Source: Pycnopodia helianthoides (Eukaryota > Echinodermata > Asteroidea > Forcipulatida > Asteriidae). From it: DNA of 64,000 nt. The notes under the pieces are model-generated. The model was not told the origin of the DNA. It saw only the letters and a program-made list of their open reading frames with translations, and made no database searches. Position numbers and translations under genes: made by a program. Below are positions 9,455 through 56,389 of the stretch, piece after piece. Within the stretch, counting starts at the first letter, position 1. Each line of letters begins with the position of its first letter. The stretch lies in assembly GCA_032158295.1 (NCBI GenBank), contig CM063264.1:12215920-12279919 (forward strand), given 5' to 3'.

Positions 9455-9463
9455 CGATTTGCC

Positions 9464-10144: not shown

Positions 10145-10396
10145 ATACTTCAATCAAAACGGACGTTGTCACAACAGATCTCATTCAGACTTCCTGGGAG
10201 ACTAGAGCAGGTGCCACCTATACCCTCCTGTTGACCAATACTGCATATGGTACGACCCGAAAGATTGAGATCCGTAACACGCAGACTGACAAGTTTGTCT
10301 TCACTAGATTGACGCCTGGTCAGACGTACACAATTCAGATCACATATCACTTCGACGGACGGAACACCGATGGTGGAACAGTCACAGAAATCACAC
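10145..10396 (+). CDS. FN3-like domain exon, copy 1
   Basis: A 252-bp (84-codon) open exon between a tgcttgcag acceptor and a CACAC|GTAAAT donor, phase 1 on both sides. The translation has fibronectin type III hallmarks: the B-strand Trp (residue 18, in TSWET) and the F-strand signature FTRLTPGQTYTIQIT (53-67), with Tyr at 62. FN3 domains act as extracellular or structural binding modules, but the host protein is not identifiable here. This copy is the most divergent: RKIEIRN at 39-45, R55 instead of G, F70 and I83. If the donor is not used, the frame stops after RKYSS. No other exon type of the gene is seen nearby. It could be a real tandem-exon gene or an amplified captured exon. Confidence 0.75.
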
Positions 10397-10628
10397 GTAA
10401 ATATAGTAGTTAGAGACAATTTACAGGATAGTATAACCATTAACAAAATAAACATTGAGTTATAGTTTTAATCGTTAAACCTCACGGATTACATACAGTG
10501 CCAATAGACTGTGCAAGTCTTTCGCTTATCGAAAACTAGTTCCGATAATCGTGATCCTTCATCCTCCCTCCATAATCCTCTACGACGGTCGAAACATGGT
10601 CGGGAGGACCATAGAGCCGTAGTTTTTG
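10397..10628 (+). other. Intron-like 3' flank of FN3 exon 1
   Basis: Conserved 3' flank shared with the other copies: gtaaatatagtagttagaga, a caaaataaacattgag segment with an AATAAA-like word, then ttccgataatcgtgatcc and acgacggtcg. It is truncated relative to copy 3, joining straight into the next hairpin array. Confidence 0.65.
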
Positions 10629-10965
10629 TAGGTGTTCGGCAATCGGCCGAAAACCAAATATTATTGTTCTGTTTTTTGATGTTTGGCGAAAAGCCGAAAA
10701 CTAATGTTATTCTACTGTTTTTAGGTTTTCGGCCATCAGCGCTGAAAACCTATTGTTTTTGTTCTGGTTTGTAAAGGTGTTCGGCGATCAGCCGAAAACC
10801 TATTGTTCCGGTGTATTTTTGGCGCTTGTCCCATCAGCCGAAAATCTATTGTTGTTTTTTTTCGTTTTTTTTAGGTTTTCGGCGATCTGCAGAAAACCTA
10901 TTGTTATTGTTTTGTTGTTTTTTAGGTGTTCGGCGAAGAGCCGAAAACCTACTCTTATTCTTCTT
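10629..10965 (+). repeat. Hairpin array B, seven units
   Basis: Units at about 10629, 10679, 10724, 10775, 10820, 10872 and 10924, about 50 bp apart, each AGG(T)GTTCGGC-loop-GCCGAAAACCT followed by attgttattgtt. Loop bases differ between units (aatc, gaaa, catc, gatc, gaag). It marks the start of duplicon 2. Confidence 0.85.
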
Positions 10966-11585
10966 CTTTTTCCCTGAAACTTCCCACCAAGATTCCTCAA
11001 AAATAAAAGTCACACAGACTGGAAACTTGGCGTGTACTTGCATCCTATTTTTAAACGGCACTTGAAGATTTACATGATGATGACGTCATCAGGAGTAGAA
11101 TTACAAGTTTTTTTTTTGTCATAAAGAGACCATTTGCTATTTGCTTCAGTTTGAGCAATTTGAAAGCTTTGATGTTCATAATTAGCCATTTGGTAGATCA
11201 TGACAAGGGTATCATTTGACGTTTTTGTGCGATCCACGAAAAGAAGAATTATATGAGAAAGAGCGTTTGTCTTGTCTGCTGGGAAATACAACCTTTTGTT
11301 GGCATCAAATTTTCTGACATTAAAAGGAAACCCAACAAAACACACATGTTTTCCTGGTCTGTAACTAGTGGTATAGTTTAGCCACGTATGATCATCGTTT
11401 CTCTTGATAAACTATGGCCATATCAAAATTGGTGGCTACAGCTATGGCTTTGACTGTTGTTACGGGTGTTGCTATAAGGACATCCTAGACTTCAACACAT
11501 AATGGCGCCCAATCCATCTATAGCTGTAGCCGTAGCCTCAATTCGGACACGGCCTAAGATTATAAGTTTGTATTTCTGCTTGCAG
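10966..11585 (+). other. Intron-like 5' flank of FN3 exon 2
   Basis: Same order as in copy 1: tctttttccctgaaac, acacagactggaaacttgg, gatgacgtcatcagga (about 11080), the GGCTACAGCTA (11434) / TAGCTGTAGCC (11521) inverted repeat, then a polypyrimidine tract and GCAG at 11582-11585. Confidence 0.65.
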
Positions 11586-11837
11586 ATATTTCAATCAAAA
11601 CGGACGCTGTCACAACAGATCTCATTCAGACTTCCTGGGAGACTAGAGCGGGTGCCACCTATACCCTCCTGTTGACCAATACTGCATATGGTACGACCCG
11701 ACAAGATAAGATCTTTAACTCGCAGACTGACAAGTTTGTCTTCACTGGATTGACGCTTGGTCAGACGTACACAATTCAGCTCACATATCACCTCGACGGA
11801 CAGAACACCAATGGTGGAACAGTCACAGAAACCACAC
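11586..11837 (+). CDS. FN3-like domain exon, copy 2
   Basis: 252 bp, open, phase 1-1, acceptor gcttgcag and donor CACAC|GTAAAT. It shares residues R21, Y35 and R39 with copy 1, so these two neighbours are sisters. Distinctive residues are I2, A8, D41, F44, L58 and N76. The Trp18 and GLTLGQTYTIQLT signature is intact. Spliced to a previous copy, the split codon joins C to AT (His) and the frame continues. The exon starts 1441 bp after the start of copy 1. Confidence 0.75.
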
Positions 11838-11862
11838 GTAAATATAGTAGTTAGAGACAAAT

Positions 11863-12045
11863 TATATTTTTTTCGCCCTTACACCAGTGTTAGTGCACTA
11901 TAACAACGGTACTTTCCACAGTCCTGTTAACAAAAATCTACAAGCATATCACTCGAGATTCAAACCCACGACCTTTGCCATGCTAGAGCAGACCACTAGA
12001 CCACCGAGCCTAGCCCGATGGCTGCAGGCAGTCCAAGTCCTATTA
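11863..12045 (-). mobile_element. tRNA-derived SINE fragment 1
   Basis: On the minus strand it contains ctcggtggtctagtggtc (A-box-like) and gtgggtttgaatc (B-box-like), about 35 nt apart, as in a tRNA-derived SINE promoter. The + strand reads cgagattcaaacccacgacc. The same fragment is found at 14767, 41936 and 54670, at the same place in the duplicon. It is not a functional tRNA: there is no closed acceptor stem and the fragment continues past both sides. An A-rich tract follows at 12043-12064. Confidence 0.6.
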
Positions 12046-12099
12046 AAAAAAAAAAAAAAAAAAACTATAGGATTTAAAGAAGAAAAAAAAACACCTTAA

Positions 12100-12435
12100 A
12101 GGTATTGTACACTTTCGGTAACAGCTCAACATCAGTGTCCACATTTTGTGTGATTAAACATATGCATGAACAAACAAACCTGTGAAAGTTTAAGCTCAAT
12201 TGGTCATCGAGGTCACGAAGAATAGTGAAAAGAGATCTTATGTGTTTTCTGTTTTTTTTTCAAGTTATCGCGCGCGATAATTACTATTGTTTTACTCGTT
12301 TCTCAGAAACGATAGCATTTTAGGCAGAAATATTGTAAGGAACACTTTCTACCATTACTTACTTTAAATCATGTAAGTTATGTGTGAATCTGTGAACATT
12401 GTGTTTTTCGATCTTACCAATAGTGTACAGGGCCT
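12100..12435. mobile_element. MITE with TTAA target duplication, 336 bp
   Basis: Begins AGGTATTGTACACTTTCGGTAA-like and ends with the inverse TTACCAATAGTGTACAGGGCCT-like sequence, flanked by TTAA on both sides (12096-12099 and 12436-12439). The interior is non-coding and contains the palindrome atcgcgcgcgat. TTAA TSDs point to Kolobok or piggyBac; no transposase is encoded. Confidence 0.8.
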
Positions 12436-12459
12436 TTAAACAAAAATCGAATGTTTTTT

Positions 12460-12930
12460 AGGTGTTCGGCCATCAGGCGAAAACCAATTGTTATTAAACT
12501 GTTTTTAGGTGTTCGGCTATCAGTCAAAAACATTCGGTTATTGTACTGTTTATTGTTTGTTTAGGTGTTCCGCGAATTGCCGAGAACCTTTTGTTATTCT
12601 ACTGGTTTTTGTAGGTGCTCGGCGATCGGCCGAAAACCTAATGTTATTGTTCTGATTTGTTTTTTTAGGTGTTTGTGCAATACGTGCACGAACACTTGTT
12701 GCAATACGTGCACGAACGCCTCTTGAAATTGTTATTATTTTTTTTAAAGATGTTTGGCGAACAACCCAAAATATATTGTTATTCTACTGTTTTTAGGTGT
12801 TCGGCACTCAGCGCCGAAAACCTATTGTTATTGTTCCTTTTTTGTGCTCGGCCCATCAGCCGAAAATCTATTGTTGTAGTTCTGTTTTCTCAGGTGTTCG
12901 GCGATAAGCAGAAAACATATTATTATTCTT
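12460..12930 (+). repeat. Hairpin array C, nine units
   Basis: Units near 12460, 12506, 12562, 12613, 12667, 12748, 12795, 12843 and 12892. The order of unit subtypes (ccatcaggc, ctatcagtc, cgaattgccgag, cgatcggcc, a gtgcaatacgtgcac unit, gcgaacaacc, cactcagcgcc, cccatcagcc, gcgataagc) is the same as in the arrays at 42176 and 54911. The arrays were therefore duplicated whole. Confidence 0.85.
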
Positions 12931-13568
12931 CCGGTTTTTTTTTTGCGTCTTTTTCTTTTTCCCTGAAACTTCTCATCAAGATTCCGCGAAAAGTAAAATT
13001 CACACAGACTGGAAACTTGGCATATACTTGCACTATATCTTTAAGACGGCACTTGAAGAATGACGTCATCGGGAGTACAATTAAAACGTTTGTTAGTTCA
13101 AAAGAGACCATTTGCCATTTGCTTCAGTTCAAGCAATTTGAGAGCTATGATGTTCATAATTCGGCATCTGATAGATCAAGACTAGGGCAACATTTGATTT
13201 TGTTGTGACAATCCGCAAAAAAGAAAAATTAAATGAGAAAAAGTGTTTGTGTTTTCTGCTGAAAAATGAATCCTTTTGTTGGCATCAAATTTTCCGACAC
13301 TAACAGGAAACCCACCAAAACACGTATGTTTTCCTGGTAAGTAACCAGGTATAGTTTAGCCACGTATGATACTTTTTTCTCTTGATAAACTATGGCCATA
13401 TCAAAATTGGTGGCTACAGCTATCTATGGCTTTGACTGTTGTTAAGCGTAGTGCTAAGGACATCCTATACTTCAGCACATGATGGCGCCAAATGCAGCTG
13501 TAGCTGTAGCCATAGCCTCAATTCGGACACGGCCTAACATTATAAGTTTTTTTTTGTTTTGCTTGCAG
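12931..13568 (+). other. Intron-like 5' flank of FN3 exon 3
   Basis: Same modules as the other flanks: tttttccctgaaacttctc, cacagactggaaacttgg, gaatgacgtcatcggg (about 13059), the conserved GCTACAGCTA/TAGCTGTAGC inverted repeat (about 13420 and 13499), a T-rich tract and GCAG at 13565-13568. Confidence 0.6.
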
Positions 13569-13820
13569 ATACTTCAATCAAAACGGACGTTGTCACAACA
13601 GATCTCATTCAGACTTCCTGGGAGACTATAGCGGGTGCCACCTACACCCTCCTGTTGACCAATACTGTAGATGGTACGATCCAACAAGTTAAGATCTCTA
13701 ACTCGCACACTGGAAAAGTTGTCTTCACTGGATTGACGAATGGTCAGACGTACACAATTCAGCTCACATGTCACCTCGACGGACAGAACACCGATGGTGG
13801 AACAGTCACAGAAACCACAC
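13569..13820 (+). CDS. FN3-like domain exon, copy 3
   Basis: 252 bp, open, phase 1-1, acceptor cttgcag and donor CACAC|GTAAAT. Trp18, Tyr62 and GLTNGQTYTIQLTCHLDG are intact. Distinctive residues are V34, I38, S44, H47, G49 and V51. Its class (I21, D35, Q39, C68) is shared with copies 4 and 5. The flanks are the most complete of any copy, and a candidate second exon follows at 14578. Reading through the donor would add RKYSN and stop. Confidence 0.75.
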
Positions 13821-14577
13821 GTAAATATAGTAATTAGAGACAATTTACAGGATAGTATAACCATTAACAAAATAAACATTGAGTTCTAGTTTTAATCGTT
13901 AAACCTCACGGATTACACCAAATGCTAAGAAACTGTGCAAGTGTTTCCCTTATCGAAAACTAGTTCCGATAATCGTGATCCTTCATTCTCCCTCCATAAT
14001 CCTCTACGACGGTCGGGACATGGTCGGGAGGACCATAGAGCCAGGACCGGAGGACAGAGAAAGCGAGAGACAAATCAAACGACGACTATATTTTCTTTAT
14101 GAAATCTTCTTTTACATTTCTATTTATACCAAATTCTTCAAATAATAAATACCAATAGCAATTTGTTGTAAATGCAATTTCAATTTTTATATCAAACAAT
14201 TAAGTTTTTCTTAATGAAATCTTCTTTAACAATTTTGGTATACCAAATTCTTCAAAATTTAAATACCCATAGCAATTTGTCGTAAATGCAATTTTTATAT
14301 AAAACAATTAATTTTTCAAACCAACATTGAAACATAATTCAAATTTGGAACGAGAATACTTAGTTTATAGAAACCCCATTTGCGAATCACGTTCAACCAT
14401 TATAAAGGGTTAAAGATAAAATGTGCGACAGTCGAGCAACACTCATAATTGTTTACAAGTAACCTTATAGTCGTTTTTTTTTCTTAATTAATTTTTAAAT
14501 TTAATTTGTATTCATGTAAAAATTATTTCATCGCTGTATTTTACCTTACCAACAATATAACGTAATTTTTTTTATAG
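13821..14577 (+). other. Intron-like stretch between FN3 exon 3 and the 37-bp candidate exon
   Basis: Contains acattgagttctag, cgataatcgtgatcc, acgacggtcgggacatgg, then AT-rich DNA ending in a polypyrimidine/T tract and tttatag (14571-14577). Two near-repeats of a fragment starting gaaatcttcttt lie at about 14100 and 14216. Confidence 0.55.
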
Positions 14578-14614
14578 CCACTACCTATGTTACAAGAAAC
14601 AAAATCGAGTACAG
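14578..14614 (+). CDS. Candidate 37-bp exon, copy a
   Basis: After a strong acceptor (ttttttttatag) comes 37 bp in the frame left by the FN3 exon (phase 1), coding TTYVTRNKIEY, followed by AG|GTCAAA. Two other copies (41757-41793, 54489-54525) have exactly the same length, no stop, and AG|GTAAAA donors. The conservation of frame and splice edges in three copies is the only evidence. Alternatively it is a terminal exon: in this copy the frame continues for about 25 residues to a TAA. No domain recognised. Confidence 0.35.
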
Positions 14615-14766
14615 GTCAAAACTCATTACGTCTGAGGCCAACTTTGTCCCGGACGTTCAATACACAAATAATATTTGTATGCAAACTTAAACTCTGTCAA
14701 GAAATCTGTGAGAAAATAGCAACTGAAGACCCAACGTTGAATTACTCTAAATTTAATTTGAACATT

Positions 14767-14935
14767 TATTTCGCCCTTGAACCGATGTTAGTGCACTGTT
14801 ACAACGGTACTTTCCCAAGTCCTGTGAACAAAAATCTACATGCATATCACTCGAGATTCAAAACCACTACCTTTGCAATGCTAGAGCAGACCACTAGATC
14901 ACCGGCTGCAGGCAGTTCAAATCCTATTAAAAACA
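14767..14935 (-). mobile_element. tRNA-derived SINE fragment 2
   Basis: Same unit as at 11863: + strand tcgagattcaaaaccactacc ... agcagaccactagatcacc, that is B-box and A-box on the minus strand. The B-box is slightly decayed. It ends in an A-rich tract. Confidence 0.55.
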
Positions 14936-14997
14936 AAAAATAAGATAGGATTCAAAGAAAATAAAAACCACCTCTTAAACAAGAAACTTTGTCAAAT

Positions 14998-15134
14998 GTT
15001 TTTTAGGTGTTCGGCCATCAGGCAAAAACCTATTGTTTTTGTACTATTTAAAGGGTGTTCGGCTATCAGTCAAAAACCTTTGGTTTATTGTACTGTTTAT
15101 TGTTCGTTTAGGTGAACTGCGGAGAACCTTTTGT
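14998..15134 (+). repeat. Hairpin array D, three units
   Basis: Units at about 15004, 15052 and 15109 correspond to the first three subtypes of the longer arrays (ccatcaggc, ctatcagtc, gtgaactgcggagaacc). The array is cut short by the AGCTGTTCCG array. Confidence 0.75.
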
Positions 15135-15404: not shown

Positions 15405-17618
15405 TTTTTTCATTATTATTATTATTCTTTCTAACCCCAAACCCTATTGACTTAACACATGACTTTTCTACTTGTCATATGCCCCTCTAAGAATTATCAG
15501 AAGTAGACAAATTATATACCATATGAAAGCTTATGCCCTGACGTAAGCTGAGGTGTAATTATATTAAGATGCTTAATTAATTATTCACGTGACAGCTGTG
15601 TGAATAATTAAATAGTCCATCTTCTGTCCATCATATCTCAAGAAGTATACATCCTATCCTCAAACTTTTTTTCAGTTATGGACTTGTCTTGTATTGTAGA
15701 TGGCAATTCTGGCCTAACATTTGCCATCACGTCATCATGACGTCACTTTTTTGCGCGTTTTTTATCTGTAAACAAAACCAATGGCTCTAAAAAAAAATAA
15801 TGTTAAAAACACAACATTTCAGAATAAGTTACAATTTACTTACTTATAATACACAAATCATGTTTAAAACACAAATGTTTTTACTAAGAATTATTCCAGG
15901 CAATTAAAAATTTTCAAATACAATGTAGTTTCATGATAATTAACGATTTAAGATTGAAAAATCTGACCCCATGAAACATTGATTGGGATAAGTTATATAC
16001 CGTCTTGTACCCTATGAAATGTATTAGTATGAAAAACACATTTTTGTTACTGTGACGTCATCAGGTGTCAAATTACAGTAATTCAAAGCTTTAATTAGTT
16101 AATCTTTGCAGCACCATATCTCAAGAAGTACACAGCCGATTTTCAAACTTTTTTCAGTTTTAGACCCCTTTGGCATTGAAAATTAACCATGGAACAAACC
16201 CCACTGACCCCATGAAACAAACTCTGTATTGCGCAATCACGGCAATGCGTCGAAGATTGTGCCGCTGTTATTCCTAACCGAAGGTGGACCAATTGGTTTG
16301 TATACACCCCATTGGATTTGTGCGTGACCAACATATATGAAAAGTTAGGGTGTTTTTTTTAAGGGCATTGGATTTGGATAAGTTACAAACCATCTTGTAC
16401 CAAACAATTTATTAGTAGAAAAACACATATGTTTTACTGTGAAGTCACCGGGTGTCAAATTACAATAATTAAAATGTTGAATTAGTTCACCTTTGCAGCA
16501 CCATATCTCAAGAACTACACACCCGATTTTCAAACTTTTTTTTCAGTTATAGACCCCTTGGGCATTGGAGATTAACCATGGGTTACCGTGACCCCATGTT
16601 GACCTTTACTTCCGGTTAACCGGAAGTAGGACCATATCTCAAGAAGTACACAACCGATTTTCAATTTCTTTTCAGTTATAGATCCTTTGAGCATTAAAGA
16701 TTGAACTTCAGTTGCCGTGACCCCTTGTTGACCTTTACTTCCGGGTCAACCGGAAGTTTGACCATATCTCAAGAACTACCCACCCGATTTCCAATTTCTT
16801 TTCAGTTATAGACCCTTTGAGCATTGAAGATTGAACTTGGGTTACCATGACCCCATGTTGACTTTTACTTCCGGGTCAACCAGAAGTTGGACAGTATCTC
16901 AAGAACTACACAACTGATTTCAGTTTTCTTTTAACCATGGGGTCAGCGAAGGTGCTCACGCCATAGGCACGTTTTTATATTTTTGTTAATTACAACACTT
17001 TTTGGTTCAATTTTGCTGATATTAATTTTCATCCAACCCTGAACAGTCCTTAACGAAGTGGCTGAACCGATTTTGCCCTAGAGGTCATTCACCGGGTAGG
17101 CCAGTTGTCACAAATGTGGGTGGAGCCAAGGCGGCATTCATTTGTACTATTTTGGGGCAAAATCGCGGACTTCGACATGCTTTGGCAAATCAGTTGTGAA
17201 CCAATATGCAATTGCCATAATGTTAAAATCTTTGGTGTGTGTGCTCAGTGAACTTAGATTCATCTGTTCAAACCATTAGAACAAGATTTGTGCTCCCAAA
17301 CACAGTTATTTACAACCCAACATAAAACGCCTACCGCGTGAGCACCCTGGGGGACGCGCGTAAATATTCTGAGCTTGCTGCTTGCAGGGTTAAGTTTTAG
17401 ATCCTTTGAGCATTGAACTTCGGTTACCATGACCCCTTGTTGACCTAGCTTTCCTCCCGGTCCAAACAGGAAGTTCAAATATCAAAAACCATATCTCCTG
17501 AACCACATGTCATAAAGTCATAATCTTTGAGATGCTTGCTAGCATATTACAGAGCTTTTAATCAAATTACAACAAAACGGAACAGCTCTGTGTTTGTTCA
17601 CAAACACCTAAGGTCTAG
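15405..17618 (+). repeat. 130-bp tandem-module repeat, copy A, with Helitron-like 3' end
   Basis: A 2.2-kb repeat whose second copy is at 39340-41620. It starts attattattcttt...ccccaaaccctattgac. Its 3' half is a tandem array, with accatatctcaagaa(c/g) at 16500, 16631, 16761 and 16891, period 130. Each unit contains ttcagttatagacccttt.agcatt, ccatgttgacctttactt and a palindromic core CCGGGTCAACCGGAAGT. It ends with hairpin GTGTTTGT/ACAAACAC and CTAG (17615-17618). About 16930-17395 is a non-repetitive stretch in which I see nothing. Confidence 0.75.
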
Positions 17619-17629
17619 TTCTACTTGTT

Positions 17630-22901: not shown

Positions 22902-23153
22902 ATACTTCAATCAAAACGGACGTTGTCACAACAGATCTCATTCAGACTTCCTGGGAGACTATAGCAGGTGCCACCTACACCCTCCTGTTGACCAATACTG
23001 CAGATGGTACGACCCAACAAGTTAAGATCCCAAACTCGCAGACTGACAAACATGTCTTCACTGGATTGACGAATGGTCAGACGTACACAATTCAGCTCAC
23101 ATGTCACCTCGACGGACAGAACACCGATGGTGGAACAGTCACAGAAACCACAC
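22902..23153 (+). CDS. FN3-like domain exon, copy 4
   Basis: 252 bp, open, phase 1-1, acceptor gttgcttgcag and donor CACAC|GTAAAT. It is closest to the consensus of the six. Trp18, Tyr62 and the FTGLTNGQTYTIQLTCHLDG segment are intact. Distinctive residue: H51. It lies 9.3 kb after copy 3 and 30.7 kb before copy 5. Both gaps are filled by repeats and insertions, so it could still be spliced to its neighbours. Readthrough of the donor gives RKYSS and stop. Confidence 0.75.
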
Positions 23154-27118: not shown

Positions 27119-28194
27119 ATGCCGAGACGATGCTCTACTTCTTTCAGGAATTTGCCAAGGGCAACATACACAGGCGATCAGTCTCCAATGATCCATCCTT
27201 CTAGTTCTTCTTCTTACCAACCCAGACGTCCCTCAGCCACTTCTACTCACCAATCTCAACATCTCCAATTGATGCCTTCCCATCAGGTGAAAAACATCCC
27301 CACCTTCACTGGAAATGAAAAGAATATTTCAATTGACGATTAGGTACGCGATGCAAAGTACTTGATAGATACTACAGCAATTCCACAGGAACTCCAATTC
27401 TCAACAGTCGTCAGGTACCTGGGAGGTACAGCGAGAAAACTCGTCCTCAACCTACCAAAAGAACTCCAGAAACCTGATGGTGCGATTTCTGAGCTTAAAG
27501 CACAGTTTAGTGACATACTTTCTGGAGGAGACCCTCTTGCAGAATTCTATGAGAGAACGCGACGCCCGAACGAGTCCCCGAGCATATACGCTGTAGAATT
27601 GGAAGCGACCCTCAGAACAACTGAAGAACGCATCTACAGATGAACAGATCTATTTCCCTGTCGAACCGAAACAGAATGTTGACACAGCAATTCATGCGAG
27701 GTGTCAAAGATGACAAAATAACACAGAGACTGGCGTCTATGAAACCTCGTGAAATGCCTTTCCGTGACCTCCAAGCTGAACTTCGACTCATTGAAAGAGA
27801 GAATAGAATGGATGCAGATTATAGACTGACAAAACCCAAGACGCCTCAACCACCAAAGACTCAACTGCAATCAAGTCAGTCACCCTCTTCCTCAGAACAG
27901 AAGGCATCGAATGCACCTCCTGAACAACAAGCTGAATCCCGTCAAAGATCTGAGTATGATCCCCTGCTTATGCAAGATGTTATAATACAGATGCAACACC
28001 TTACCCAAGAGGTTGATAACATCACCAGACGACGGAGAACAACACAGCACATTCCCAACCAGACAACCAAGAACGGAGTCTACATATGTTACAAATGCGG
28101 TAACGACGGTCACATAGCAAGGGGATGCCGCAGTGTGCCTTTAAACTCCCAGGGCCCACGGTCACAGGGCAAACCGTCAGAGGCCAACAAATAA
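27119..28194 (+). pseudogene. gag: Ty3/Gypsy gag (broken)
   Basis: The Gag structural polyprotein would form the virus-like particle. The frame starts at ATG 27119 in a Ser/Gln-rich leader, is stopped by TAG at 27341-27343 (probably a mutated Trp codon), resumes at about 27344 through 27643 with a capsid-like segment (YLGGTARKLVLNLP, GGDPLAEFYERT), and shifts frame around 27640. The last part (27640-28194) ends with a CCHC zinc knuckle, CYKCGNDGHIARGC, the RNA-binding nucleocapsid signature. The protease frame overlaps its 3' end. The element is therefore inactive. Family assignment rests on pol downstream. Confidence 0.8.
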
Positions 28195-28928
28195 ACCGCC
28201 CTTCTTCTTCATTATCTCCATACCATGTCCACTCCAACCCAGAACATCAAAAGCTAATTGGTCCTCACAACGAAGAGATAATCGACATTCTGGGTACAAA
28301 ATGCAGAGCTTTGATTGATTCCGGTTCCCAAATTACATCTGTCACTTCAGACCTATGGCATGCCCATCCAAAACTCAGAGACATTGAACTGACACCAGCT
28401 GATGTCAACATAGAAGGAGCCAATGGTTTACCAGTTCCATATCTTGGTGTTATTCCAATCACTCTAGAAGCCATGGGATTTATCTACCATGACATACCAG
28501 CATTTGTCGTCCCTACCGATCCTTATCGAGCCCAGGTCCCACTTCTGATTGGAACAAACGTAATCAGGGCGTCGAAGAAAGATCAACAGCAAACACGAGA
28601 GTGATCTTTCATGGATCTCTTGGGCGAGAAAAGCACAGCTTGGCACACAGCCTACGTCAACACAGCCATCTCAAGCCACACAGATAAGAATGGGAAGATG
28701 GGCTATGCCAGATACACCGATATAAACACTCGATGCATTCCTGCTGGTGAAGAGATTGACATCATGTGCCTAGCTCCTTCAAACCCATCAGGTGGCACAT
28801 ACACTGCCGTCGTAGAAGGAATTGAGAACAACCAGGTATCGTGTTTGAGGATTGGTAGCATAGTAACTGATATAGGACCGGATCGACACGTACCAGTGCG
28901 AGTGTGCAACATTACGGCAAACCAGTAA
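28125..28928 (+). pseudogene. pro: Ty3/Gypsy protease region (broken)
   Basis: The aspartic protease would process Gag-Pol. The active-site triad is visible as ALIDSGSQIT (DSG), with the flap/strand region VPLLIGTNVI about 75 residues later, matching retropepsin order. A TGA at about 28602-28604 separates this from an in-frame continuation (28611-28928) with the post-protease spacer (NGKMGYARYTDINTRCIPAGE). It overlaps gag in another frame, and the next segment (RT) is shifted again at about 28904-28928. Non-functional. Confidence 0.75.
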
Positions 28929-31035
28929 CGATTAAAAGGAATTCTAATCTTGCTCAGGTATCATACGTCCTTCGGGTAGATGAGCCGCAAGCTAATCTCC
29001 ATCCAACTCCTAAAGATAACACGTTCACAGGAGAGTCTCCTTCAACCATCAGTAAGACATCACCTGCCACAGTCCACACTACCACTATAACATATGATTT
29101 AGATAAGACAATCCAATCACTAGATCTATCCAACTCCACTATAGAGAATGAAGGTCAACGAATGAAACTATCATGTCTCCTTCAGAAACACAGCGACATC
29201 TTTTCTAAAGACTCATTAAATATCGGTCGCATATCTACAGTGAAACACTGCATCCCTCTCGTCGATGACAAACCCGTCAGACTTCCCTACCGCCGCATTT
29301 CACCAAACCATTACCAAGCAGTTAAAGAACAGCTGAAAGGCATGGACGACGCTGAAGTAATAAGAAAAAGCTGCAGTCCTTACGCTTCACCTTTGGTTAT
29401 CGTACACAAGAAGGATGGGTCGTTGAGAATTTGTATTGACTACAGACAACTAAACCAAAAAAAAACACCCGAGATGCTTACCTACTTCCGCGTATTGAGG
29501 AAGCTCTTGATGCTCTTGGAAATGCCTCACTGTTCACAACTCTAGATATAACATCTGGTTATTGGCAGGTCGAAATGGATGAGAGCGACAAAGCCAAAAC
29601 AGCATTCACTACTCCCATGGGCCTGTACGAGTGCAACAGGATGCCTTTCGGCCTACAAAACGCACCCGCAACCTTTCAACGCCTCATGACAATGTGCCTT
29701 AATGAGCTCAACTACTCTACATGTCTACTATATCTCGACGACATCATAGTATTTTCTTCTTCATTCGATGAGCATATCGAGCGCTTGGATAAGGTCTTTA
29801 CATGTCTGCATCAACATGGATTGAAGCTTAAGCCACAAAAATGCCACCTACTCCAGACGGAAGTAAAGAATCTCGGACACATTATCTCTGCGAAAGGAAT
29901 ATCCACTGACCCTGAAAAGTACGAGACTGGCCAAACCCAGCTAACCACAAAAGAACTACGGAGTTTTCTAAGGTTCACCGGGTATTACCGTCGCTACGTA
30001 AACGGATATGCAAAGATAGTGGCCCCGCTACACAAACTAACGGCAGGAAACCCAAAACGTCGGAAAGGAAAGCGGACGCTTACCAAACCGCCCCTTTATA
30101 TCTGGACAGATGAAGCACAAGCATCTTTTGATCAGCTAAAAAAGGTTATGATATCAGCCCCCATCCTCAGTTATGCTGACTATAAGAAGCCTTTTCTTCT
30201 TCAAACCGATGCTTCCGGTGTTGGGCTTGGAGCGGTCCTTGGTCAAATTCAAGGTGGAGAGGAGCGTGTCATAGCCTACGCCAGCAGAAGTTTAAATCAG
30301 GCAGAATCACGATATCCAGCGCACAAGTTGGAATTTCTTGCAATGAAATGGGCAGTAACGGATAAGTTAAGAGATTACCTTCTTGGCAGTGATTTCACTG
30401 TGTACACAGATAACAATCCGTTACTCTACGTCACCACCACGGCCAAGTTAGACGCAACAGGCCAACGATGGGTTGCTGCCCTTTCTCAGTTTTCCTTCAC
30501 TGTGAAATATAAGCCTGGTAAGAACAACGCGGTCGCAGATGCACTCTCCAGAAAACAACATCCTGTCACAGACACAACGTCAGTCTTCTTCACATTACAA
30601 CCTGCTGATTATGTACCGAAACCACTCTCCTTCACAACAGAACACCTTGAGATTACAACCGATGTTGTCAATGCCATATGCAGTGATCATCCCACCGCAG
30701 GCCAACTCTTCATAGAACCCGCAAACTGTCAAATCACGACCAGGCGACAAGCAAAACTACTAAATCCTGTTAAACCTGCAACCAGCGAGAACGAAATGCC
30801 GAGATTAACTACGAAGCAAGTTGCCATTGCACAGCAGGATGATCCAGGGATATCTAGAGTTTTATTCTTTCTGGAACATGGCCATAAACCAGATCACATA
30901 CAGCGAAGTGGAGAGACACCTGAATGCAATATCTACTTCAGGCAATGGGACAAGCTAAAACTAAAAGATAGCATTCTCTACAGAGCTCGAAAGACAACTG
31001 ACGACACACTCTCACACCAGCTTTGTACTTCCTAA
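28904..31035 (+). pseudogene. pol: Ty3/Gypsy reverse transcriptase-RNase H (broken)
   Basis: RT blocks in order: YRRISPNHYQAVKEQLKGM and YASPLVIVHKKDGSLRIC in the first frame (to 29545). A 1-base change in an A-run at about 29458-29467 then shifts the frame. Next come LDITSGYWQVEMD, PFGLQNAPATFQRLM and the catalytic YLDDIIVFSS (two Asp). RNase H follows with LLQTDASGVGLGAVLGQ, HKLEFLAMKWAV and TDNNPLLY, and the domain closes at GKNNAVADALSRKQ. After a linker the frame ends at 31035, where another shift precedes integrase. RT-RH-IN order is that of Ty3/Gypsy, not Copia or Gmr1. Catalytic residues remain, but the frame is interrupted. Confidence 0.9.
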
Positions 31036-32098
31036 TTGTTACCGGTCAACAGCGATGTCAGGTCTGCACGATGACATTGGCCATCTGGGCTTTGAACGCA
31101 CCCTCGATATGATCCGCAGCCGATTCTTCTGCCCCGAATGGCACAAGATGTGAAAGAATGGTGTGTCAGGTGCAAGCGTTGCTGCCTTAGAAAAACCTCT
31201 CCATCAAAAGTAAGAGCACCACTAGTCTCCATCTTTACAATTGAACCTCTAGAGCTCGTCTGCATAGATTACCTTAAACTAGAACGAAGCAAAGGCGGTT
31301 TTGAAAGTGTTCTCGTAATAACCGACCATTTCACCAAATACGCTCAAGCTTTTCCCACACATGACCAGAAGGCAGAAACTGTAGCAAAGGTCATCTGGGA
31401 GAAATTCATCCAACATTATGGTTTCCCAACACGTATACATGCAGACCAAGGACGCAACTTCGAGAGTCAGCTCATACAGGAACTCTGCAAAGTCTCCAGG
31501 ATAAAGAGAAGCAGGGCAACCCCTTACCATCCCCAAGGTAACGGCCAAACTGAACGGTTTAATCACACTCTCTTGAACATGTTGGGAACACTGGAAGACA
31601 ATCAGAAAAAAGATTGGAAGAATTATGTAGGTGTGATGGCACATGCATATAATGCGACCCGTCATGACACAACAGGCTATGCACCATTCTACCTGATGTT
31701 TGGGCGCCATCCGAATCTGTCAATCGATCTGATGTTTGGGTTAGATGCAAAACATAACGACGATCAACCAGAATATGACGACTACGTCGAGAAACTGAAA
31801 GAACGACTGGTGTTCTCCTATGACGTAGCAAACAAGTCATCGAAACGGGCCAAAATGAAACAGAAGCATATGTACGACAAGAAAACAAAAGCATCACCCC
31901 TTCAACCAGGAGACAGAGTACTTGTACAAGTGAAACATTTCGAAGGCACACACAAACTAGCAGACAGATGGGAATCAAACCCCTACACCATCATCACCAA
32001 ACATGATAACACACCAGTGTATAAGGTAATATCTCTCTCTGACGGCAAAGAACGAACCATCCATCGAAATCTCCTCACGCCGTGCATGTTCTCCCCAT
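31022..32098 (+). pseudogene. int: Ty3/Gypsy integrase (broken)
   Basis: The zinc-binding HHCC domain is split by a frameshift. HDDIGHLGFERTL lies in one frame (about 31068-31106) and CVRCKRCC in the next, which starts at 31138. The catalytic core is intact in the 31138-32098 frame: VCIDYLKLER (first Asp), HADQGRNFES (second Asp) and GNGQTERFNHTLL (Glu), spaced as D,D-35-E. A C-terminal SH3-like segment follows (LQPGDRVLVQVKHF, HKLADRWESNPY, VYKVISLSDG), and the frame ends at TAG 32098-32100. The enzyme would insert the cDNA copy. It is inactive here because of the upstream breaks. Confidence 0.9.
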
Positions 32099-32100
32099 AG

Positions 32101-39190: not shown

Positions 39191-41620
39191 CCATAACCCC
39201 TTGTTGACCTTTCCTCCCGGTCCAAACAGGAAGTTCAAATATCAAAAATCATATCTCCTGAACCACATGTCACAAAGTCATAACATTTTGTGATGTTTGC
39301 TAGCCTGATACAGAGCGTTTAATCAAATTAAAACAAAACGGAACAGCTATGTGTTTGTTCACAAACACCTAAGGTTTAGTTATTATTATTATTATTCTTT
39401 CTTTCCCCAAACCCTATTGACTTAACACATGACTTTTATACAGGTCATTTGCCCCTCTTATAATTATCAGAAGTAGACAAATCAAGTTGCATAGTAAAGC
39501 TTATGCCCTGACTTGACTTATTTATGTTATTATATTAATATGCTTAATTAGTTATTCACGTGACAGCAGTGTGAATATTTAATAAGTCATTCTTCTGTCC
39601 ATTATATCTCAATAAGTATACATCCTATCCTCAAACTTTTTTCAGTTATGGACTTGTCTTGTATTGTAGATAGCAATTCTGGCCTTACATTCGCCATCAC
39701 GTCATCATGACGTCACTGTTTTGCGCGTTTTCTATCTGTGTAAAAAACCAATGGTTCTAAAAAATAATGCTTAAAACACAACTTTTCAGAATAAGTTACA
39801 TTTTAGTTAATAATAATACACAAATCAAGTTTAAAACACAAATGCTTTTACTTCCAGGCCATTAAAAATAAACAAATACAATGTAGTTTCATGATAATTA
39901 ACGATTTAAGATTGGTAAATCTGACCCCATGAAACAAACTCTGTATTGCGCAATCACGGCAATGCGTCGGAGATTGTGCCGCTGTTTATTCCTAACCGAA
40001 GGTGGACCAATTGGTTCGTACACACCCCATTGGATCTGTGCGTGACCAACATAAGATATGAAAAGTAAGATTGTTTTGTTTAGGCATATGATTGAGATAA
40101 GTTACAAACCATCTCGTACCTTATAACATTTATTAGTATGAAAAACATTTTTTTTTACTGTGACGTCATCAGGTGTCAAATTACAGTAATTAAAAGCTTT
40201 AATTAGTTAATCTTTGCAGCACCATATCTCAAGAAGTACACAGCCGATTTTCAAACTTTTTTCAGTTATAGAACCCTTGGGCATTGGAGATTAACCCCGG
40301 GTTACCGTGACCCCATGTTGACCTTTAGTTCCGGGTGAACCGGAAGTGGGACCATATCTCAAGAACTACACACCTGATTTTCAATTTCTTTTCAGCTATA
40401 AACCCTTTGAGCATTGAAAGTTGAATTTTGGTTACCGTGACCCCCTGATGACCTTAACTTCTGGGTCAACCGGAAGTGGGACCATATCTCACTCTGATCG
40501 GCAGAGTGTGGGTTCGAGTCCTGGTCGTGACACTTGTGTCCTTAAGCAAGACACTTAACCATTATTGCCTCGTCCTTCGGATGGGACGTAAAGCCGTAGG
40601 TCCCGTGTGTTGTGTAATGCACGTAAAAGAACCCAGTTACACTTATTGCTAAGAGAAGGGGTTCGCCCCGGTGTTCATGGTTTGATTGGCAGCATATTGC
40701 GCCAAAGCACCTTGTAAACCATTACTTGGTGCTATGTAAAGGAACATGTCTAATACTTCAAAACGTAGCTCTACATTATACCTTGCAGGAAAAATACTGA
40801 GCGCTTTGAGACGCCCATCGGACGTGATAAAGCGCTATATAAGAACTGCGTATTATTATTATTATTATTATCTTAAGAAGTACAGAACCGATTTTCAGTT
40901 TCTTCTCAGTTATAGATCCTTTGAGCATTGAAGATTGAATTTGGGCTAACGTGACTCCAAACTGACCTTTACTTTCGGGTCAACCGGAAGTGGGACCATG
41001 TCTCAAGAACTACACAACCGATTTCAATTTGTTTTCAGTTATAGATCATTTGATAAAAAATTATTTTCGGTTAACGTGACTCCAAATTGACCTTTACTTC
41101 CGGGTCAACCGGAAGTGGGACCATGTCTCAAGAATTACACAACAGATTTTAAAAAAAATTTCAGTTATAGATCCTTTGAGCATTACGAATTATTTTCGGT
41201 TACCGTGACCCCGGGTTGACCTTTACTTCCGGGTCAACCGGAATTGGGACCATTATTCAAGATGTAAACGGCCAATGATCAATTTATTTTCAGTTATAGA
41301 TCTTTTGAGCATTCAAAATTGAACTTCGATTACCGTGACCCCTTGATGACCTTTACTTCTGGGTCAACCGGTAGTGGGACCATATCTCAAGAAGTACACA
41401 CCCGGTTTTCAATTTTCTTTCAGTTATAGATCTTTTGAGCATTAGACATTGAACTTTGGCCATGACCCCTTGTTGATCTTTCCTTCCGGTCCAAACAGGA
41501 AGTTAAAATATTAAAAATCATATCTCCTGAACCATATGTCATAAAGTCATAATCTCTGTGATGTTTGCTAGCTGAATACAGAGTGTTTAATCAAATTAAA
41601 ACAAAACGGAACAGCTTTGC
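39191..41620 (+). repeat. 130-bp tandem-module repeat, copy B
   Basis: Second copy of the 15405-17618 block, preceded by the same terminal hairpin (gtgtttgttcacaaacacc, 39351-39369). Tandem units start at accat(a/g)tctcaagaa near 40351, 40481, 40995, 41120, 41249 and 41379, period 125-130, each with an ACTTCCGGGTCAACCGGAAGT-type core. There are more units than in copy A. Interrupted by a SINE at 40491. Confidence 0.75.
40491..40871 (+). mobile_element. tRNA-derived SINE, near full length
   Basis: B-box gtgggttcgagtcc, then a body with gacacttgtgtccttaagca, gggacgtaaagccgt, aagagaaggggttcgcccc and gattggcagcatattgcgcc. The 3' part is gcgctttgagacgcc...aaagcgctatataag, with an (ATT)n tail. It splits a tandem module exactly between accatatctc and aagaagtac. 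A second, 5'-truncated copy is at 45827. The 3' end resembles a LINE tail, as expected for a parasitic SINE. Confidence 0.8.
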
Positions 41621-42110: not shown

Positions 42111-42175
42111 AAAAGATAATAATATAGGATTCAAGGAAAATAAAAACCACCTTTTCAAAACTTTATCAAATGTTT

Positions 42176-42455: not shown

Positions 42456-42479
42456 TTTTTAATTTTTTGATTGGGATGT

Positions 42480-51339: not shown

Positions 51340-51424
51340 TTAACCAGCCGGTTGAGTTAAAACTTGTTTTCTGTTAGACAACGACCATGGCTTGTCAATT
51401 GTGAATTGACGTCATGATGAGGTC

Positions 51425-51460
<36 letters not shown>

Positions 51461-51530
51461 TTAGCTTAGTATTAAAAAAAAAAATCATTACTCCCGAACC
51501 AGACATTTGATTTTTGTTATCTACATATCA
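51340..51530. repeat. Module remnant with poly-T tract
   Basis: gacgtcatgatgaggtcatc (about 51410) followed by a run of about 29 T (51429-51457), then the module word catatcatgcgaaa where the next insertion begins. Confidence 0.6.
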
Positions 51531-52175
51531 TGCGAAAATAGAATTAGCTGTTGCAAACTGCTTACCAACCAAAAGGTCCTGTAGTATAAATGCAAAACAA
51601 ATTAGTTAGTGGCCTGACGTTTCGACCCTAGCAGAGTCTTTCTCGAAAGCTAAACTCACACACATACAAGCATACAAGGGTGACAAGAGCAGTCATGTGG
51701 AAATACATGAATAGAGACAGTGGAGAGAGAGAAAAGCAAGAAGCATTCAGAAGGGGCAGGGGGTAGGCAGGGATTATGGAGACATAGAGATGGAGGGAAG
51801 GGGGATGGCTTGACCACAAGAAGTTGGAAACACAAAAGAAAAAATGGAAGGTTGGAAACAAGTAAATAATTAGGAAATAGGGCATACTAAAAATATGGAT
51901 ATCTGTGTTGGGAAAGGGAGAAGGCAAAGACAAAAGGTTATTAGTCATTTCCTTCTTGGATGTTCAAACCATTGGGCTGAAAGGTCTTTATGCTCCTTAT
52001 CCACAATGTCTCCCTACTCAGACGGACAGTCTCTCTTGAGTTACCTAGTGCCTCTATGCCCTGTAAATTCATTTCAAAAATGGAGTGGGTTTGGAAGATT
52101 GAAGTGTTGTCCTACAGGTGTATCCAGCTTTTGGGTGTTGACTATGGATCTGTGGCTGTAGAAACGCCTTTTCAG
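51531..52175. mobile_element. Unclassified 645-bp insertion
   Basis: Bounded by comparison with 18751-18770, where ctacatatcatcagaaagg is uninterrupted; here it is split, with cat repeated on both sides. The minus strand contains agagtctttctcgaaag inverse with gggtcgaaacgtcaggcc, a sequence like the GAAAC-bearing core seen in Penelope-like element termini. The interior is purine-rich with no credible frame. Family uncertain. Confidence 0.45.
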
Positions 52176-52823
52176 TTCATCAGAAAGGTTTTCAAGAACT
52201 TAATGGATGATACCCAGAATGTAACCCCGTTTAACCTTGTCTTCCGGTTGAAACCGGAAGTTGAAGTTTATTAACGGAAACAATCATAACTCATGAACCA
52301 CATGTTCGATTTTTACAATCTAAACATCATCGGACAGGTCGTGAAGAGTTCAATAAAAGTTACACAAAATGTGAACCCATTTGACTTTGACTTCCTGTTT
52401 AATCTGGAAGTTGAAGATTAATCATTGACAAATTATAACTCCTGAACCACACATTGGATTTTTGCAACCTATACATTATTGGAAAAGCATTGTATGAAAA
52501 AAGTTTGACCCCTTGGCCTTTCATCTGAAAGAGAAATTAAAATAACTTCAACAGCGCCCTCTCGTGACACATTTTTTAATAGAAACTATTAATTTTTAAA
52601 AAACCTGTTGCATAAATCCAAAAAGATTCAAACTTATGATAGGACAAGAAATAGGCTTTGAATACATCAAAATAGCGTTATAAGCAAAACAATGTCTTCT
52701 AATTTTCAACCAATTCTTACATTACTTCACCACAACCAGAGTAATATCAAAACTTTAACAAATGACTTATTGAACAGATGCCGAACACCCTGTTTTTGTT
52801 TTGAAGCAATAACTTAAGTCTAG
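52176..52823 (+). repeat. Helitron-like modules ending in CTAG
   Basis: Paralogous to 18770-19563: CTTCCGGTTGAAACCGGAAG at 52241-52260, gcgccctctcgtgac, and the terminus tgtttttgttttgaagca with CTAG at 52820-52823, directly followed by array I. Confidence 0.65.
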
Positions 52824-52825
52824 TT

Positions 52826-52975
52826 GTTTTTTAGGTGTTCGGCGAACAGCAGAAAACCTATTGTTAATGTTTTGGTGTTTTTCAGGTGTTCGGCGATGAG
52901 CAGAAGACCTACTGTTAGTGTTTTTTGTTTGTTTTTTGAAGTGTTCGACGATCAGCAGAAAACCTATTGTTATTC
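52826..52975 (+). repeat. Hairpin array I, three units
   Basis: AGGTGTTCGGCGAACAGCAGAAAACCT, AGGTGTTCGGCGATGAGCAG-type and aagtgttcgacgatcagcag units near 52832, 52884 and 52939. All three have CAGAAAACC right arms, so pairing is slightly weakened. Start of duplicon 5. Confidence 0.8.
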
Positions 52976-53624
52976 TTCCGGTTTTTTTTCTGCGTCTTCT
53001 TCTTTTTCCCTGAAGCTTCTCATCAATATTCCACAAAAAGTAAAAGTCAAACAGACTGGAAACTTTGCATATACTTGCACTTTAACTTTTAGACGGCACT
53101 AAAAGAATGACGTCATGATGACGTCATCAAGACTAGAATTACATGGTTTGTTAGTTAAAAAGAGACCATTTGCTATTTGCTTCAGTTCAAGCAATTTGAA
53201 AGCTATGATGTTCATAATTCGGCATCTGTATAGATCAAGACTGGGGCAACATTTGACATTTTTGTGACAATCCGCAAAAACAAGAATTATATGAAAAAGA
53301 CCGTTTGTGTTGTCTGCTGGAAAATGAATTATTTTGTTGACATCAAATTTTCCGACATTAAAAGGAAGCCCACCAAAACACACAAATTTGTCTGGTATGT
53401 ATCTAGTGGTATAGTTTAGCCAGGTATGATAAATGTTTCTCTTGATAAACTATGGCCATACCAAAATTGGTGGCTACAGCTATGGCTTTGACTGTTGTTA
53501 CGGGTGTTGCTAAGGACATCCTATGCTTCAACACATGATGGCGCCCAATGCAGCCGTAGTTGTAGCCGTAGCCTCAATTCGGACACGGCCTAAGATTATG
53601 AGTTTGTTTTGTTTTTGCTTGCAG
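52976..53624 (+). other. Intron-like 5' flank of FN3 exon 5
   Basis: ttctgcgtcttcttcttttt, caaacagactggaaac, TGACGTCATGATGACGTCATC (53108-53128), the GCTACAGCTA (about 53471) / TAGTTGTAGC (about 53558) inverted repeat with one G:U-type change, then tgcttgcag. Standard duplicon order. Confidence 0.65.
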
Positions 53625-53876
53625 ATACTTTAATCAAAATGGACGTTGTCACAACAGATCTCATTCGGACTTCCTGGGAGACTATAGCGGGTGCCACCTA
53701 CACCCTCCTGTTGACCAATACTGCAGATGGTACGACCCAACAAGTTAAGATCTCTAACTCGCATACTGACAAATTTGTCTTTACTGGATTGACGAATGGT
53801 CAGACGTACACAATTCAGCTCACATGTCACCTCGACGGAAAGAGCACCGATGGTGGAACAGTCACAGAAACCACAC
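53625..53876 (+). CDS. FN3-like domain exon, copy 5
   Basis: 252 bp, open, phase 1-1, acceptor gcttgcag and donor CACAC|GTAAAT. Trp18 and FTGLTNGQTYTIQLTCHLDG are intact. Distinctive residues are L3, M6, R15, S44, H47, K73 and S74. The readthrough stop found in other copies is lost (TAG to TAC), so an unspliced reading would run on for about 15 more residues. That makes splicing the more likely fate, if the exon is used. Followed by a candidate 37-bp exon at 54489 and, 2.5 kb on, by copy 6. Confidence 0.75.
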
Positions 53877-54488
53877 GTAAATATAGTAGTTACAGACAAT
53901 TAACAATAAACATTGAGTTCTAGTTTCAATCATTACATTTCACGGATTACATACAGTGCCAATAGACTGTGCAAGTCTTTCGCTTATCGAAAACTAGTTC
54001 CGATAATCGTGATCCTTCATTCTCCCTCCATAATCCTCTACGACGGTCGGGACATGGTCGAGAGGATCATAGAGCCAGGACCATGGACGGAGAAAACGAG
54101 AAAACAAATCGAACGACGACTCTGGTTTTTTTTTTATAAAATCTTCTTTTACAATTCTATTTATACAAGTTTCTTGAAAATATAAATGCCCATAGCAATT
54201 TGTTTTAATTGCAATTTCAATTTGTATATCAAGTTGTTTAAATTAACATTGAAACAGAATTGCAACTTGGGAACGAGAATGCTTAGTTATACAAACTCCA
54301 TTTGCAAATCACGTGCAACCATTACATAGGTTTAATGATAGCATGAGCGACAGTCGGGCAACATCCATAATTGTTAACAAGTAATTTTTTAGTCGGTTTT
54401 TCTTAATTAATATTTCAAATTTAATTCTCTTTCATATATTTCGTCGCTAAATTTTACCTTACCAACGATATAACGTAATTTTTTATAG
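53877..54488 (+). other. Intron-like stretch between FN3 exon 5 and the 37-bp candidate exon
   Basis: Same order as after exon 3: acattgagttctag, cgataatcgtgatccttc, acgacggtcgggacatgg, AT-rich DNA, cgacagtcgggcaac, T-rich tract and tttttatag at 54480-54488. Confidence 0.6.
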
Positions 54489-54525
54489 CCACAACCTATG
54501 CTAAAAGAAACAGAATCGACTACAG
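54489..54525 (+). CDS. Candidate 37-bp exon, copy c
   Basis: Acceptor aattttttatag, 37 bp coding TTYAKRNRIDY in the phase left by the FN3 exon, donor AG|GTAAAAAC. In-line reading stops at once (AGG TAA). Same length and frame as copies a and b, with amino-acid changes at 4-5 of 11 positions. Confidence 0.35.
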
Positions 54526-54669
54526 GTAAAAACTCATCACGGTTGGGACCAACTTGGTACTGGACGTTCAATACACAACTAATATTTGTATCCAAATATG
54601 ATCTCTGTCAAAGTGATAAAATAGAATTAAAAGAGCCCACGTTGAATCACTTTAAATTTAATTTGAACA

Positions 54670-54835
54670 TTTATTTCGCACTTACACCGATGTTAGTGCA
54701 CTGTTACAATGGTACTTTCCCAAGTCCTGTGAACAACAGGCATTCGGGATTCAAACCCACGATCTTTGCCATGCTAGAGCAGACCACTAGACCACCGAGC
54801 CTAGCCTGATGGCTGCAGGCAGTTTAAATCCTATT
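54670..54835 (-). mobile_element. tRNA-derived SINE fragment 4
   Basis: + strand gggattcaaacccacgatc ... gcagaccactagaccaccgag. B- and A-boxes are on the minus strand. A short deletion (tctacaagcatatcactcg) distinguishes it from fragments 1-3. Confidence 0.55.
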
Positions 54836-54910
54836 AAGAACAAACAATAATAAAGGATTCAAAGAAAATAAAAACCATCTCTGAAACAATAAACTTTTTC
54901 AAATGTTTTT

Positions 54911-55460
54911 AGGTGTTCGGCCATCAGATGAACACCTTTTGTTATTGTACTGTTTATTAGGTGTTCGGCTATCATTTAAAAAACTTTGGTTATTATACTG
55001 TTTATTTTTTGTTTAGATGTTCGGCGGACTGCCGAGATCCTTTTGTTATTCTACTAGTATTTTTGTTAGGTGTTCGGCGATTGGCAGAAAACCCAATGTT
55101 ATTGTTCTGATTTTGTTTTTGTTAACTGTGCACGAACACTTGTTGCAATACGTGCACGAACACCTCTTGAAAATGTTAAGTTTTATATTTAGTTTGGGAT
55201 TGAACAAAGTTTTATATTTTTTCGACGTTTGGCGAAAAGCCGAAAACCTATTGTTATTCTATTTTTTTTTATGTGTTCGGCCATCAGCGCCGAAAACCTG
55301 TTACTATTGTTCCTGGTTTTTGTGGTGTTCGGCCCATCAGCCGAAAATCTATTATTGTTGTTCTGTTTTCTTAGGTGTGTGGCGATCTGCCGAAAACCTA
55401 TTGTTATTGTTTTGTTGTTTTTTAGGTGTTCGGCGAACAGCGGAAAACCTATTGTTATTC
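54911..55460 (+). repeat. Hairpin array J, ten units
   Basis: Units near 54911, 54959, 55015, 55068, 55128, 55222, 55272, 55323, 55372 and 55422, pitch about 45-55 bp (longer at the gtgcacgaacact unit). This is the most complete array. Its subtype order defines the family: ccatcag, ctatcat, cggactgccgag, cgattggc, gtgcacgaacac, gcgaaaagcc, catcagcgcc, cccatcagcc, cgatctgcc, cgaacagc. Start of duplicon 6. Confidence 0.85.
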
Positions 55461-56137
55461 TTGTGCTTTTCTGCATCTTCTTCTTTTTCCCTGAAACTTC
55501 TTATCAAGATTCCGCAAAAAGTAAAATTCACAGTCTGGAAACTTGGCATAAACTTGCACCTTAACTCTAAGACGGCACTTGAAGAATGACGTCATGAATA
55601 CGTCATCAGGAGTTGAATTACAATTTTTTTCGAAAAAAGACCATTTTTTATTTGCTTCAGTTCAATGAAAGCTATGATGTTCATAAAAAAGGGCCGGGCA
55701 ACATTTGACTTTTTTTTGTGACAATCCGCAAAAAGAAGGATGATATGAAAAAGAGCGTTTGTGTTGTCTGCTGAAAATTAAATCTTTTTTGTTGGCACAA
55801 AATTTTCCGACATTAAAACCCTGCGTGATGCCATCGTACTGCAATCAACAGTCCATTTTTTATTAAAAGGAAACCCAACAAAACACACATGTTTTCCTGG
55901 TCTTTAACTAGTGGTATAGTTTAGCCACGTATGATAATTGTTTCTCTTGATAAAATATGGCCATGTCGAAATTAGTGGCTACAGCTATGGCTATGACTGT
56001 TGATAAGATTGTTGTTATAAGGACACCCTATACTTCAACACATGATGGCGCCATATCCAGCCGTAGCTGTAGCCGGAGCCTCAATTCGGACACGGCTTAA
56101 GATTATACATTATAAGTTGGTTTTTTTTCGCTTGCAG
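55461..56137 (+). other. Intron-like 5' flank of FN3 exon 6
   Basis: ctgcatcttcttctttttcc, tgacgtcatgaatacgtcatcagg (55587-55610; second palindrome mutated), an insertion of about 50 bp at 55818-55866, the GCTACAGCTA (about 55980) / TAGCTGTAGCC (about 56064) inverted repeat, T-rich tract, cgcttgcag. Confidence 0.65.
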
Positions 56138-56389
56138 ATACTTCAATCAAAATGGACGTTGTCACAACAGATCTCATTCAGACTTCCTGGGAGACTATAG
56201 CGGGTGCCACCTACACCCTCCTGTTGACCAATACTGCAGATGGTACGACCCAACAAATTGAGATCCCTAACTCGCAGACTGATAAAGTTGTCTTCACTGG
56301 ATTGACGCCTGGTCAGACGTACACAATTCAGCTCACATATCACCTCGACGGACAGAACACCGATGGTGGAACAGTCACAGAAACCACAC
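56138..56389 (+). CDS. FN3-like domain exon, copy 6
   Basis: 252 bp, open, phase 1-1, acceptor cgcttgcag and donor CACAC|GTAAAT. Trp18 and FTGLTPGQTYTIQLTYHLDG are intact. It is mosaic: I21, D35 and Q39 as in copies 3-5, but P58, Y68, I41 and E42 as in copies 1 and 2. That is what gene conversion or unequal exchange between copies would give. Readthrough stop RKYSS present. Its 3' flank is cut by an antisense LINE. Confidence 0.75.

Follow-up and report, generated by a model that had tools for sequence, protein, structure and literature searches.

We identified an array of 27 near-identical exons of fibronectin type III (FN3)-like character on contig CM063264.1 (C22) of Pycnopodia helianthoides, of which the first six lie in the window, the 64,000-nucleotide stretch C22:12215920–12279919 that was analysed. 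These exons probably belong to one tandem-exon gene, in which, judging from the sequence, they would be joined into one long redundant FN3 chain. A preliminary description of the window had reported six phase-symmetric exons of one length and one orientation, and these were recovered exactly as given, at 10145..10396, 11586..11837, 13569..13820, 22902..23153, 53625..53876 and 56138..56389 (exons 1 to 6 of 27, all on the + strand, 252 bp and phase 1-1). Each is preceded by GCAG, followed by GTAAAT, and open in one of three frames, with two bases, 83 codons and one base making up phase 1-1. Exons 5 and 6 form a pair, the first being of the TLIK type and the second of the TSIK type. Searches of the window by blastn and tblastn gave six places above chance and no seventh copy. 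Identity among the window exons was 89–96%, and the longer alignments that span introns were 78–90% identical, with many gaps.

The genome (479 Mb, 742 contigs) was searched for further copies, as had been proposed with the six exons. Of 29 matches from the DNA search, 27 were full copies on C22, 21 of them additional to those in the window; the other two were a 101-base fragment directly past copy 20 of the same array and one full copy on contig C3. The full C22 copies run head to tail from 12226064 to 12494918, a span of 268,855 bp, all 27 on the + strand. Their spacing is 1,441 to 30,723 bp, and the contig end lies about 160 kb beyond the last exon. Several are grouped in twos or threes 1.4–2.5 kb apart, and in four of the twos a TLIK-type exon is followed by a TSIK-type exon. 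At the protein level, these 29 places were recovered again together with four weaker FN3-like matches, among which C3:4645499 (38% identity, E = 1.8 × 10−5) and C14:1443636 (29%, E = 5.6 × 10−4) were the best. The tandem array of phase-symmetric exons postulated from six copies was supported, and its near-identical coding units, head to tail and in one orientation, show the arrangement that defines coding tandem repeats of the kind seen in kringle IV type 2 (KIV-2) of LPA. Statements on gene structure inside the array rest on the window, L040, L049–L052 and the exon loci.

Reading frame and splice sites are preserved across the array. The exon is open and exactly 252 bp in 26 of the 27 C22 copies, and copy 9 (L014, C22:12300329) has a one-base deletion in an A run and an open frame apart from that. 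Thus, the earlier statement that no indel falls inside an exon held for the six in the window and failed once in the array as a whole. TTGCAG precedes and GTAAATATAGTA follows the exon in all 27 copies, and the first 12 and last 6 intron bases are identical. The exon tree (26 open C22 copies and the C3 copy, with copy 9 excluded from trees and stop count) carries approximately 165 substitutions on its C22 side; as 3.5% of random changes produce a stop, 5.8 stops were expected and none was seen (P = 0.003). With indel-to-substitution ratios of 0.05 to 0.13, the range found in the flanks, 8 to 21 indels were expected and one is known (probability of at most one, 0.0025 to 1 × 10−8). Copies with stops or indels, which in large number had been named as the sign that would speak against selection, thus came to one of the 27 full copies, and selection for an intact frame, favoured from the outset, is borne out by the wider array.

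It had also been suggested that change within the exons be set against the divergence of their flanks. In 378 pairwise alignments of the 27 C22 copies and the C3 copy, gaps opened 0–1.2 times per kb in the exon versus 3.8–21.4 times in the introns, which differ by about 10% between array copies and carry many indels. In a 20-base profile, the exon alone runs for 230 bases practically gap-free. Substitutions were distributed differently: successive quarters of the exon gave p-distances of 0.058, 0.058, 0.109 and 0.061, the 20 bases that follow it gave 0.028, and the remaining intron bins gave 0.075–0.129.

Missense change within the array is nearly free, with ratios of nonsynonymous to synonymous substitution rates (dN/dS, or omega) of 0.6–1.2. 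The pairwise value was 0.62 (325 pairs, 26 copies), and a codon model gave 1.03, from which a value of 1 was not rejected; other tree runs gave 0.95–1.18. The fit improved when some sites were allowed an omega above 1 (M2a over M1a, twice the log-likelihood difference (2dlnL) = 15.9; sites 12, 43, 57, 67 and 69). The gain was 14.9 without C3 and 43.4 on the flank tree, and it dropped to 5.3, 4.4 and 8.0 when each segment had its own tree and to 7.9 with equal codon frequencies; residue 57 alone exceeded 0.8 in every one of these four re-runs. Recombination is evident, since 236 of 861 pairs of informative sites failed the four-gamete test. As the signal depends on the tree and on codon frequencies, we regard diversifying selection as possible and do not hold it to be the main cause. 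Divergence is concentrated at exon bases 120–180 (p-distance 0.10–0.15), and near residues 37–58 synonymous and missense differences are both raised, which fits deeper ancestry and less gene conversion in that stretch.

Taken exon by exon, the FN3 assignment is weak; comparison with other FN3 domains of the same genome and the surroundings of the C3 copy helped it. PF00041 was listed for all six window exons (E = 1.2 × 10−4 to 0.09) and was the top family for three of them, with every match below the cut-off. An hhalign comparison of the array profile with other FN3 domains of this genome gave a probability of 44% (E = 2.4 × 10−4), and both neighbour exons of the C3 copy were called fn3 by Pfam. 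Together with the C3 context, the 252-bp phase 1-1 exons show the pattern of one domain per phase 1-1 exon found among FN3 exons; the FN3 domains of the tenascin-X, fibronectin and titin genes are classically encoded in this way. Domain identity to the first alignment row is 82–94%, and 31 of 83 columns are invariant, including W17, Y25, L28, L29, L55 and Y61. No other FN3 type was found on C22 itself, and a protein database search with the six-domain chain scored 8000 candidates, none of which reached E = 0.001. A profile search of the PDB gave two ribosomal protein matches (E = 0.54 and 0.92), which we set aside as not meaningful. Elsewhere in the genome, over 80 of the 150 FN3 matches scored lie in a dense run at C8:7051457–7131841, which is presumably titin-like.

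Homology between the C22 units and the C3 locus covers approximately 1.6 kb, beginning about 310 bases ahead of the exon and ending about 1,075 bases past it, and the introns are homologous on both sides. The ends of this shared segment are sharp where inspected and stand beside T runs. The C3 copy sits between FN3 exons, phase 1-1 by inspection, at around C3:22.10–22.12 Mb, with EGF-like matches further along the same strand, and we infer that these make up one extracellular-type gene. A search for the exon next upstream of the C3 copy gave matches on C3 and C20, weak ones at two other C3 places (E = 0.04 and 0.97), and none on C22. The C20 relative has the C3 upstream neighbour exons at 88–90% protein identity, and its homology to C3 ends some tens of bases short of the start of the shared segment; the searches gave no array-type exon on C20. 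At C20:11609000–11628999, one upstream FN3 exon occurs twice together with its surroundings.

Within the window, self-comparison showed each exon embedded in a larger repeated unit, with 9455–10618 aligning to 52894–54076 (+ strand, around exon 5), 12859–14042 and 55383–56605. An intronic minisatellite with a unit of about 48 bp containing GTTCGGC is repeated along with these units on the + strand, at 10622..10959, 12452..12939, 52823..52972 and 54904..55472 (the last in two stretches, 54904–55006 and 55227–55472), and in most C22 copies with a complete shared segment it comes after that segment. The GTTCGGC motif occurs 23 times on one strand of the window and not at all on the other. There was one occurrence in 70 kb of C22 flank (L039, L041–L046), and one array locus (L029) had a single opposite-strand match. 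The motif was absent from a 10-kb C3 stretch (L038) and from eight C8 loci, the genome at large not being searched for it.

Ty3/gypsy-like frames with zinc knuckle, protease, reverse transcriptase, RNase H and integrase lie between exons 4 and 5 (27625..32097, + strand) and are not part of the array gene; more retroelement and transposase frames occur within and beside the array. These include a DDE_Tnp_4 transposase frame at C22:12280103–12281122. A 612-residue frame on the minus strand at window 58206–60044 had a weak endonuclease/exonuclease match (E = 4.4 × 10−4, below the cut-off) and is perhaps akin to long interspersed nuclear elements (LINE-like). Tandem repeats with a unit of about 130 bases stand at three window places (16500–16932, 40221–40491 and 40869–41453), and a perfect TGT run of 60 copies (8930–9110) lies directly upstream of the first array unit.

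Exon, intron and minisatellite are common to units that stand head to tail, and this points to local duplication. We propose that the 1.6-kb segment with its single FN3 exon, which the array has in common with the extracellular-type FN3 gene on C3, whichever of the two loci gave it to the other, was multiplied head to tail on C22 by unequal crossing over or segmental duplication, partly as two-exon pairs, and that the introns were enlarged by transposons. Each 252-bp phase 1-1 exon would add one 84-residue domain with the frame undisturbed. If the array is transcribed as one gene, its exons would be spliced into a single chain of up to 27 × 84 = 2,268 residues, which may work as an extracellular spacer or adhesive rod. 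A frame break would then ruin the whole chain, and a missense change in one of 27 domains would be tolerated.

Several observations, in the exons and around them, weigh against such a chain. The worst fitting is the one-base deletion in copy 9. It should disrupt any chain built from all the exons, unless this copy is skipped, is polymorphic or reflects an assembly error in the A run. Missense change was not free on every measure: dN/dS between array and C3 was 0.39 (26 pairs), and on the flank tree omega was 0.51 on internal branches versus 1.23 at the tips (2dlnL = 13.9), from which the older array copies look constrained. The exon trees gave no such difference between internal branches and tips. 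Restricted to the 77 changes seen in a single copy, the tests are weak, with P = 0.066 for stops (2.7 expected) and P = 0.1 to 0.0005 for indels. In approximately 40 kb on either side of the array (12185920–12215919 with the first 10 kb of the window, and 12496000–12535999), the FN3 model found no further FN3, and neither it nor a codon-usage scan recognised a first, last or other host exon. An upstream signal-peptide exon and a downstream transmembrane exon had been suggested as targets; Pfam recognised neither in the flank parts scanned, which for Pfam read-through of the + strand were L039, L041, L042, two L044 frames, the first 10 kb of the window and one frame each of L045 and L046.

The codon-usage scan gave a best forward candidate of 3.4 upstream versus 2.6 for the reverse-strand control. 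Downstream, it gave 11.3 and 8.6 in L039 and 7.0 in L044, versus 8.7 for the best reverse-strand control. The two L039 candidates lie directly before a reverse transcriptase frame and were on that account read as retroelement, not as host exons; flank candidates from Pfam, the FN3 model and the codon scan were transposon frames or were not taken as host exons. As a control, the scan recovered the FN3 exons of C3; its training set in that run included five of them. A 178-residue frame with a hydrophobic start and no Pfam family above the cut-off lies approximately 36 kb past the last array exon (C22:12531170–12531703) and may represent either a neighbouring gene or a final exon.

The array might instead be silent, consisting of untranscribed duplicated gene debris whose exons are open through recent copying from intact ones. 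The omega of about 1 on the trees, the lack of another recognised host exon nearby, the transposon frames around and within the array, the frameshifted copy, the fragment and the weak tests on private changes would all agree with this. We nevertheless consider it unlikely, given that stops are absent, indels rare and splice bases invariant in all 27 copies, though the introns of the same copies have diverged substantially. A Dscam-like array is also conceivable, in which each transcript would take up one or a few of 27 alternative exons and isoforms for recognition or adhesion would be numerous. Such use would be in keeping with exons that are nearly identical, equal in length and conserved at their splice sites, with phase 1-1, which permits any combination, with the divergent stretch at bases 120–180 and with the M2a signal at five sites, and it would easily tolerate the deletion in copy 9. 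In such an array, however, only part of the isoforms would suffer from a broken exon, and breaks should be tolerated more readily, yet no stop was seen; the gain for positive selection falls in all re-runs with segment trees or equal codon frequencies while recombination is evident; and the coarse 20-base conservation profile has no long gap-free intron element, intron–intron pairing not having been searched for. Joint inclusion therefore appears more likely, because an intact frame with free missense change is expected from redundancy within one polypeptide, and alternative use of the exons seems quite unlikely.

Nor do we put much trust in an FN3 receptor or adhesion locus that differs between individuals, in which copy number and order would shift by unequal crossing over, gene conversion would shuffle the divergent patch (residues ~40–60, site 57 above all) and exon choice would give each animal its own chain variants. 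The case for the diversified recognition protein envisaged in the preliminary description is weak: omega within the array is about 0.6–1.2, the selection gain shrinks in the re-runs, and the searched flanks gave no Pfam-recognised signal or membrane exon. The other early suggestion, that a captured exon was spread by transposition of a mobile element, could draw on the sharp ends of the shared C3–C22 segment beside T runs and on the minisatellite carried by the units. Against it stand the distribution of copies, all but one of which lie in a single head-to-tail cluster (28 of 28 DNA and 36 of 36 protein candidates scored), and the single orientation of the minisatellite motif in the window. 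We rejected it on that distribution, as highly improbable; dispersed copies with common ends were not encountered, and target-site duplications were not systematically searched for.

We judge the array, read as one jointly spliced gene, to be a coding tandem repeat of a known kind, with LPA KIV-2 as the nearest example. In LPA, a coding domain is likewise repeated as tandem genomic units in one gene, the units being 5.6 kb long and numbering 1–40 per allele (PMC11462820). In contrast to the LPA kringle, whose copy number is known to vary, the array encodes an FN3-like domain at spacings of 1.4 to 30.7 kb and is known here from one assembly. Tenascin-X, fibronectin and titin also repeat FN3 domains; those of the array are very alike, and nothing recognisable as a tenascin, fibronectin or titin domain lay beside them. 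Tenascin-X has 4 to 33 domains, FN3 by context, depending on the species (PMC11401434). Dscam1 and chelicerate Dscam resemble the array in that similar exons stand in tandem within the gene of a surface protein (PMC3236188, PMC4835542). Unlike the immunoglobulin exons of Dscam1, which are chosen exclusively, the array's lack of stops amid free missense change suggests joint inclusion. The C3 gene has one intact copy of the array exon with homologous introns on both sides, and differs in holding it singly between other FN3 exons. No description of the array was found in titles or the starts of abstracts, in a search that lay outside most subscription journals and did not use the species name.

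If confirmed, this would be a large natural case in which one exon has been repeated 27 times over 269 kb with frame and splice sites intact while its amino acids drifted. Such a pattern may make it easier to distinguish, by DNA sequence only, exon arrays that are read jointly from arrays of alternative exons. The array would also, if confirmed, offer a locus at which copy-number polymorphism could be studied in a surface or matrix protein.

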